Source of the DNA: Schlesneria paludicola DSM 18645
GTDB lineage: Bacteria; Planctomycetota; Planctomycetia; Planctomycetales; Planctomycetaceae
Assembly (NCBI GenBank): GCA_945869955.1
Contig: CAMBQP010000030.1
Span: 1-38,283, forward strand
DNA: 38,283 bases
Direction of reading: 5' to 3'
The position numbers and the translations under genes are program-made. The notes under the pieces are model-generated. The model had not been told where the DNA came from, did no database searches, and saw only the letters and a program-made list of their open reading frames with translations. This document shows positions 1 through 21,020 of this stretch, one piece after another. Numbering within the stretch: position 1 is the stretch's first letter; each line of letters opens with the position of its first letter.

Positions 1-351
1 GCAGCGAATGGCTTATGGGTATCGTGACCAAGTCTATTTCAAACTCAAACTTTATGCCCTACATCACGCCAAGTTCGCACTCATCGGATAAACCCGAGTT
101 TGAAGCCCGCGCACTTGGTTTGTCGTTGAACCAAAAAAAAGAGGATTTGGTTGCCGCCCTCGGTTTGAAATCGGAATCGGAACGGCAGTTTGGGAGGGAA
201 ATGGTTATGCTCTACTCGGTCGCCGCGAGGGGAGCGTGCGCCGGGGTGTGATTAAGCCGAGGTTAATCATCATCTGCAGGAGCCAAGTCGGAGCCGTCAT
301 GGTTTGCCTCTTTTTTTAGCAGTCGTTGGCGCTATTGGGAAAAGTCGTGGA
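1..351. other. Gene-poor left edge upstream of ruvX
   Basis: No convincing gene is visible here. An open frame at 15-251 on the plus strand (78 codons) has no recognisable domain. It runs across a piece of the dispersed repeat described at 925-1142 and 20217-20638, so I do not call it a gene. The stretch just before ruvX shows no clear promoter or Shine-Dalgarno sequence. Confidence 0.5.
108..132 (+). repeat. Fragment of the dispersed repeat (right-end motif)
   Basis: These 25 bases match the right end of the repeat copy at 20614-20638 at 24 of 25 positions. They are also related to 1118-1142, the right end of the copy downstream of ruvX. The rest of the repeat is not recognisable at this site, so it is either a truncated copy or an independent insertion of the end motif. 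Confidence 0.6.
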
Positions 352-924: not shown

Positions 925-1142
925 GGGTTCAATCACAAACCCAGTGCGAGAGGTAGTAAGGGTTGACTCTGCATCTCACATGACAACTTCGGTCCCTGAT
1001 CCGTGGATCTTGACCGCCATGACGATCGGACTGCTCGGTCTTGACCGGCTGCATGGTCCTCTGCTCACGGCAGCCTTCAATCAAATTTCTGAAAACTGAA
1101 AACTGAATTTTCACCGCCGCGGACTTTGTTTGATGTTGAACC
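925..1142. repeat. Dispersed repeat, copy A
   Basis: This segment is clearly homologous to 20217-20638. Shared blocks occur in the same order: a segment with CACAAACCCAGTGCG near the left end, CTTCGGTCC followed by TGATCCG, GATCGGACTGCTCGGTC followed by GACCGGCT, then GAAAACT heptamers and the motif ending GTTGAACC. The core holds the inverted repeat CGGTC-TT-GACCG at 1036-1047. Copy A has only two GAAAACT units (1091-1104), against ten in the other copy. A 61-codon minus-strand frame (929-1114) lies inside it. A similar peptide can be read in the other copy, but I take this as shadow reading of a non-coding repeat. Confidence 0.8.
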
Positions 1143-18554: not shown

Positions 18555-18753
18555 TTAGCACCGACCCGCTGGAAGCTGCGTGCGGCGGTCCGGATCGAAG
18601 TTAGGGGGACAGACACAATTTTCCCGGCAAAACGACGAGTGAATGGTTTGAGCGATTTGGCGGATCTTCACTTGGTCACGGAAAAAATGAGCCAGACCCC
18701 GAGCTGCGGGTTAGCACCGACCCGCTGGAAGCTGCGTGCGGCGGTCCGGATCG
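18555..18753 (+). repeat. 43-bp direct repeats flanking a 113-bp insert
   Basis: Positions 18555-18597 and 18711-18753 are identical over 43 bp and encode LAPTRWKLRAAVRI twice. Between them lie 113 bp (18598-18710) unrelated to RT. The insert carries imperfect inverted ends: GGGGGACAGACACAATTTTC starting at 18604 and GAAAAAATGAGCCAGACCCC ending at 18700. The extra 156 bp equals 52 codons and leaves the frame open. Confidence 0.85.
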
Positions 18754-19811: not shown

Positions 19812-20216
19812 AACTTCCCTTTCAGGGTGTGAACAATCACATTGGCTGGAAACAATCCAAACTACGCATCGGGAACGAGCGTAGCCGCTTCTCGCGTTGA
19901 CTAGACATTTCGCGTGTGACGCTGCGGTAGGCCATGTTTCGAAAAACGATCTCCATCAGACTCGAAATCGCGGAATCGCATTGATCGGCACGTCGGCGAA
20001 GCTGACGCAAACTGTGAGCAAAGCGAATCCCCCTCATTGCACCCCCAACCCTCACATAGGGAGTAATCGGTTTTAGTAAGGGGCTCGCAACATGAATATT
20101 GAGATTTTGCTTTTTTTTAATGATGAAGAAACGTAAATTCCCATTTCTCAGATTGGCTCGTCCGTCAAGCGAATTGCTTTGCGGTGCGGAGATTTCGAGC
20201 GAATTCGCCAAATTTC

Positions 20217-20638
20217 GGTTCAACCACAAACCCAGTGCGCGAGGTACAAATCCTTGACTTTGTAGCAAACAGGACGAGCAGCAAACAGGACGACTTCGGT
20301 CCTTGATCCGTTTCCTTTGACGTCCATGAGGATCGGACTGCTCGGTCTCGACCGGCTTCGTAATCCGCTTCTCACAGCAGCGTTCAGGCCAATCTGTGGA
20401 ATACGGCATTTGATTCGTGAATCACATCCTTGTCAAAAAATGCGAAGATTGTGAACCACGAATAAAACGAATCGCACGAATAGGAAGAGATTTCAAGATT
20501 CTGCACCCTGCACCCTGCACCCTGCACCCTGAAAACTGAAAACTGAAAACTGAAAACTGAAAACTGAAAACTGAAAACTGAAAACTGAAAACTGAAAACT
20601 GAATTTTCCCAACCGCGCACTCGGTTTGTCGTTGAACC
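20217..20638. repeat. Dispersed repeat, copy B (expanded)
   Basis: This copy is homologous to 925-1142 but longer. It keeps the ordered blocks (ACAAACCCAGTGCG, CTTCGGTCCTTGATCCG, GATCGGACTGCTCGGTC, GACCGGCT, the GAAAACT run and the GTTGAACC end). It also has extra material: a 14-bp direct repeat (20264-20277 and 20280-20293), a segment of about 100 bp at 20395-20500 absent from copy A, and an enlarged heptamer array. The core inverted repeat CGGTC-TC-GACCG is kept, with a changed loop base. Confidence 0.8.
20503..20600 (+). repeat. Heptanucleotide tandem array (4 + 10 units)
   Basis: Four perfect GCACCCT units (20503-20530) are followed without a break in register by ten perfect GAAAACT units (20531-20600), giving 98 bp of 7-bp period. 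Both units share the G..C.CT/G..A.CT frame. The copy near ruvX has only two GAAAACT units and no GCACCCT. Arrays like this are expected to vary in length by slippage. Confidence 0.95.
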
Positions 20639-21020
20639 CAAATTTCTTGCCGATTTCCGGGATTTGTCGTTCCGTTTTGGCGGGTTTCTACCCTGGTGGT
20701 TTCCCAACCGCGTGACCAGACGGTTGAGAAGGATTTCTCGGGTTAGATACCGTCCGCAGAATGACCGCAACGCGAGAATGGCCAATCGATTCCCGCTGTG
20801 GCGAAAGACAATCGTCCGATTAGTGACCTTTCGTTCAACCACAGAAACCTGATCGTGATTCGAAAATTCCGCCATCGACAAATCGCATGCGGATGATACC
20901 TACCGATCGCACATTCCCATGATCATGAAACGCTCGCCGAGTTGAACGATGGCACCGTAAAGCCGGATGGCAAACAGCAGGGGACCCACAAACCCGCAGC
21001 ACGAAAACACTCGAATAAAA

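Follow-up and report, generated by a model that had tools for sequence, protein, structure and literature searches.

In Microcystis aeruginosa, a 187-nt MITE is mobilised by ISL3-family elements, according to the sections available of the report on it (PMC11448079). In Porphyromonas gingivalis, the available portion of another report describes BrickBuilt, a minisatellite-bearing MITE (PMC4596501). Heptamer repeats of the unit TAACTGA occur in Beggiatoaceae, Cyanobacteria, and Bacteroidetes, and the study concerned, in the parts at hand, found no mechanism by which heptameric repeats are transmitted (PMC4679880).

The repeat described here lies in a stretch of 38,283 nucleotides from Schlesneria paludicola DSM 18645 (hereafter, the window), which carries PSCyt1, PSCyt2, and PSD1 domains. 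The repeat family is, with a probability of about 93% as judged from the sequences, a MITE moved in trans by an ISL3-family transposase.

Structure and copy number of the repeat family

A sequence-only reading of the window had proposed a dispersed repeat present at least twice. The family is far commoner and is not limited to the two copies of the window, as the collection of genomic copies revealed. At least 64 matches to a 134-base core sequence model (E ≤ 0.01) were found on many contigs of the assembly (6.25 Mb, 394 contigs), a lower bound obtained with 150 of 2482 first-look candidates scored. A BLAST search yielded at least 75 matching pieces in the same genome from 40 scored candidates out of 164, so that this copy count is a lower bound as well. 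A complete copy is bounded by 25-bp terminal inverted repeats (TIRs), with the consensus GGTTCAACCACAAACCCAGTGCGCG on the left (41 left ends) and GGTTCAACGACAAACCGAGTGCGCG on the right (26 right ends). A 16-mer of the TIR, allowing up to two mismatches, occurs 130 times genome-wide vs 18 times for its reversed control; within the window, allowing up to three, it is matched 5 times where 1.02 matches are expected, and none of 100 shuffles reached 5. The MITE-type copies with both ends are 120-428 bp long (n = 22), rows L042 and L054 being set apart as IS remnants. Core sequences diverge from their consensus by 8% to 26%, and amplification therefore lasted long.

The two copies of the window (Table 1) both start with GGTTCAAYCACAAACC and end with its inverted partner. 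Aligned end to end, they are identical at 177 of 217 bases (82%), with an alignment score of 84.8 vs a maximum of -23 among 200 shuffles. The ordered blocks previously noticed over 200 bp are thus real, and they are bounded by the 25-bp TIRs. The limits given for copy B (20217-20638) were right, whereas those given for copy A (925-1142) started one base early, the true start being 926. The inverted repeat in the core differs in its loop and preserves its stem, as had been claimed (CGGTC-TT-GACCG vs CGGTC-TC-GACCG). Copy A is an older copy that has undergone an interior deletion and is devoid of the nonamer module. Elsewhere in the window, a 43-base direct repeat (18555-18597 and 18711-18753) is present as two 100% identical units 156 bases apart.

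Target duplications were compared across 24 elements for which both termini are available; two of them are IS remnants, and two, L044 and L059, are odd copies. Flank identity peaks at 8 bp, where five elements are perfect and three more match at 7/8 positions; at the other lengths from 3 to 12, never more than one flank pair is perfect. The mean identity of the 8-bp flanks (0.61) lies above all of 2000 re-pairings (maximum 0.50). The duplicated bases are 70-72% A+T, and the neighbouring ones 41-44%. The flanks of copy B form a perfect duplication, CAAATTTC, and those of copy A a decayed one (5/8 matching), as in 16 of the 24 elements, copy A among them, whose duplications have decayed to 6/8 or less. 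TIRs, 8-bp target duplications, and a high copy number have all been found, in agreement with the earlier suggestion of a MITE-like element.

Table 1. Features of the two MITE copies, of the IS end, and of an overlapping ORF, in window positions
Feature	Positions	Strand	Remarks
3' end of ISL3-family IS, truncated where the contig begins	1..132	+	95% and 93% matches to C83 and C9
Last 29 codons of the IS transposase	2-88, stop 89-91	+	
Right TIR of ISL3-family IS	108..132	-	24/25 bases as in the MITE right-TIR consensus (by eye)
MITE copy A, 217 bp	926..1142	+	core 26% from consensus
Left TIR, copy A	926..950	+	18/25 bases agree with its own right TIR
Palindrome CGGTC-TT-GACCG, copy A	1036..1047	none	read from the sequence
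Short CTGAAAA heptamer array, copy A	1089..1106	+	
Right TIR, copy A	1118..1142	-	
ORF of about 190 aa, overlapping copy B	19837-20409	-	probably spurious; no Pfam match
Left target-site duplication CAAATTTC, copy B	20209..20216	none	
MITE copy B, 422 bp, complete	20217..20638	+	
Left TIR, copy B	20217..20241	+	23/25 bases agree with the right TIR
AGCAAACAGGACG tandem repeat, period 16, present twice in copy B	20264..20292	+	from the copy alignment
Family-specific core (model R1), copy B	20292..20425	+	best match of the core model search
Palindrome CGGTC-TC-GACCG within the core, copy B	20343..20354	none	
Nonamer module ACCACGAATAAAACGAATCGCACGAAT, copy B	20455..20481	+	in relatives also without the MITE
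Heptamer array, copy B	20501..20603	+	CTGCACC (20501-20531), then CTGAAAA (20529-20603)
Right TIR, copy B	20614..20638	-	
Right target-site duplication CAAATTTC, copy B	20639..20646	none	

The ISL3-family IS and its proposed role

ISL3-family IS have TIRs beginning with GG and an 8-bp duplication. The contig starts inside such an element: positions 1-129 are 95% identical to the IS at contig C83 of the same genome and 93% identical to that at C9. An end-motif fragment had already been pointed out at 108-132; it is real, has 0 mismatches to the TIR 16-mer, and constitutes the right end of this IS. The accompanying statement that no gene of the window would mobilise the repeat proved wrong in detail, since its first 132 bases belong to an ISL3-family IS, of which they form the 3' end. 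As this tail includes 29 transposase codons, a remnant of the putative mobiliser lies inside the window itself.

The ORF at C83 matches PF01610 (DDE_Tnp_ISL3) over positions 1-239 of the 240 of the profile, with 217 bits. The putative N-terminal zinc-ribbon part is a 128-aa fragment at the end of contig C171, which truncates it; it scores 25.3 bits to PF14690, slightly below the cut-off (25.5), and, for the HTH, 18 bits to PF13542 (cut-off 27.4). The IS copies terminate in GGTTCAACGACAAACCAAGTGCGCG or close variants, which by eye is one base from the right-end consensus of the MITE. The GG start of the family is seen in these TIRs. No match to MITE interiors was found in 11 IS loci; with interiors unrelated and ends alike, the MITE has only the TIR in common with its presumed helper.

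No intact copy of the IS is present in the assembly. The N- and C-terminal parts of the C83 element lie in different frames, and the other copies are fragments. Contigs C30 (the window) and C171 break inside the IS, as is usual for repeats in draft assemblies, so that an intact IS may be unassembled. The two paired IS remnants of this genome are without an 8-bp duplication (3/8 and 1/8 matching). At L054 (C76:6985-7855 of the same genome), a remnant of 871 bp between two good IS TIRs comprises the left part of the ISL3 element and, after it, DNA of unrelated sequence, which may stem from a further insertion or from a rearranged end. G009, a different species of the genus, harbours a related IS of 1361 bp, with 51% protein identity to the IS of the present genome, a different 25-bp TIR of its own, and the 8-bp duplication GTATTTTG. 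In G009, no MITEs carrying the TIR of that IS were found, one TIR pair being the only one detected.

The transposase of the ISL3-family IS would bind the TIRs of the MITE in the same genome, mistaking them for its own ends, and would insert the MITE into A/T-rich target sites, thereby duplicating 8 bp. Since only the TIRs would be needed for movement, the interior of the MITE would be free to drift, and it may have picked up or grown its tandem arrays, both those of the 16-bp unit and those of heptamers. The sequences compared show directly that the TIRs are those of the IS, that the 8-bp duplications are A/T-rich, that copies are numerous, and that the interior is unrelated. We infer the ISL3 transposase to be the mobiliser and to have been active recently enough to leave perfect duplications.

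Mobilisation by some other transposase, the likeness to ISL3 being a later capture or a coincidence, is quite improbable. It would accord with an assembly that lacks an intact ISL3 IS, but the TIR is near-identical to the IS ends over 25 bp, and a duplication length of 8 recurs both in the related IS of G009 and in the ISL3 MITE of Microcystis, as far as the available text on the latter goes (PMC11448079).

The MITE ends also fit the core motif of integron attC sites, RYYYAAC/GTTRRRY. An attC reading of the ends was set aside, given the 25-bp TIR and the 8-bp duplications.

RNA and gene readings of the core

The sequence-only reading had alternatively suggested a structured RNA. A regulatory RNA family spread through intergenic regions is very unlikely to account for the core, given that TIRs and target duplications suffice to explain the repeat. 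In its favour, the palindrome is found in most copies: 91% of the stem cells are paired among 39 copies, a value reached by 6 of 500 shuffles, and the covariation score is reached by 10 of 500. Nevertheless, changes on both sides affect only one of the five stem pairs, a count reached by 404 of 500 shuffles, so that the proposed test for stem covariation gave nothing convincing. In addition, a loop of 2 bases leaves too little room for the full stem to form, the window has no Rfam match, and RNAalifold predicts a consensus fold of -4.0 kcal/mol with 12 weak pairs for one strand and no pairs for the opposite strand. The core alignments A1/A2 comprise 39/47 copies, those that were too short or had long insertions being left out. 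An RNA riding on the MITE may have a minor role, and the palindrome may be no more than a well-conserved segment, or else a protein site.

A small gene family with a real minus-strand peptide can practically be dismissed: the frame is open through the core in both window copies, as had been noted, and has no stops in 18 of the 28 core copies without gaps, but its pN/pS is 1.01 (28 of 39 copies used), so that the purifying selection taken beforehand as the mark of a gene family is absent, a plus-strand frame is about equally open (17/28), and the window ORF through copy B matches nothing in Pfam. For the peptide, stops were counted and pN/pS was computed in all six frames. Minus frame 0 (pN/pS 0.65) and plus frame 0 (pN/pS 0.74) were rejected, with stops in 24/28 and 28/28 copies, respectively. 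No promoter or terminator cargo was found in copy A or copy B. As far as these alignments indicate, the interior of the MITE is under neither coding nor RNA constraint.

Distribution, tandem modules, and known systems

Matches to the MITE are present in 9 of 99 genomes, its own included, with up to 7 candidates scored per genome. In the eight others, they cover the nonamer or heptamer module only, and the MITE family is therefore specific to its own genome among those sampled. The TIR pattern has 0 matches in the named genomes and 0 in viral contigs, no relatives of the transposase were confirmed in the named genomes, and searches of plasmids for the element gave no match, although these collections may lack entries for the present genome and its closest relatives. 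Stop-free spans of at least 150 codons cross 21 of 39 joined insertion sites vs 75% of 195 nearby random controls. A rank test on these sites and controls gave P = 0.097, and no intergenic preference is therefore claimed.

The modules inside the MITE vary. The 16-bp unit is present in one to four copies according to the copy alignment, and the (CTGAAAA)n array differs in length between copies. The nonamer was detected in 11 of 59 genomes, the own genome included (reversed control 0), and 5 of 59 have the heptamer array. The listing of heptamer matches covers 100 of 124; among the 46 arrays it gives for the own genome, 25 have a MITE core or TIR no more than 400 bp away. By eye, remnants of the MITE persist at C61, C29, and C19 as well, and two or three of the remaining arrays are decayed pieces of the element. 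Most other listed arrays look MITE-free, and some are fused to other heptamers.

The MITE could conceivably serve as a vehicle that captured the nonamer module and the heptamer array, both of which are also met without it elsewhere in the class, goes on growing them, and spreads them to new places in the genome. In that case, much of the way in which heptamer arrays are scattered would be due to a mobile element and not to independent slippage. Such a vehicle, if it existed, would also provide a mechanism behind the puzzling distribution of heptameric repeats among bacteria.

Several further repeats were observed. CTGAAAA arrays without clear MITE remains by eye occur in the own genome at L170-L172, L174-L176, L179-L183, L185, and L186, and in L185 a CATCAAC array is joined to the CTGAAAA array. 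Arrays of other heptamers are joined in the same way within MITE copies, namely CCCTAAA in L023 and TTCTAAC in L187. Intergenic-looking inverted pairs of 9-bp-phased repeats were seen in G075 (L190-L197), G009 (L203), and G036 (L204). They consist of ACCACGAAT-NNN-ACGAAT-NNN-ACGAAT and its reverse complement, separated by unrelated spacers of some 30-90 bases, and they abound in one representative of a different family in the class. They are not known to belong to a described family; they are possibly hairpins or another small mobile element.

No planctomycete MITE of a comparable kind was found in the literature searched, which is no proof of absence. With the present family, a planctomycete would join the few described cases of ISL3-mobilised MITEs. 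The annotation of the window is corrected accordingly: two of its intergenic stretches are transposon copies, and the contig starts inside an IS.

In the available parts of the respective reports, mobilisation by ISL3 elements and internal tandem arrays in MITEs are both precedented (PMC11448079, PMC4596501). Like the present family, the Microcystis MITE is short, exists in dozens of copies, makes 8-nt direct duplications, and has a TIR in common with an ISL3-family IS. Its TIR, however, is 9 nt long and begins with GGCTCTTCG; the element is unrelated in sequence; its copies are identical, whereas those described here are 8-26% from the core consensus; and the portion of the report at hand makes no mention of tandem arrays, which the present family possesses (PMC11448079). 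The present family resembles BrickBuilt, as the accessible sections portray it, in its internal tandem array, its intergenic position, TIRs resembling those of a resident IS, and an interior with no transposase remnant. BrickBuilt has an IS5-type TIR and a 23-bp unit, in contrast to the ISL3-type TIR and the 7-bp and 16-bp units found here (PMC4596501). The TAACTGA repeats are likewise intergenic direct repeats of a heptamer, and CTGAAAA, rotated to AAACTGA, is one base from TAACTGA; in the sections available, those repeats are not described as part of a MITE, and planctomycetes are unmentioned (PMC4679880).
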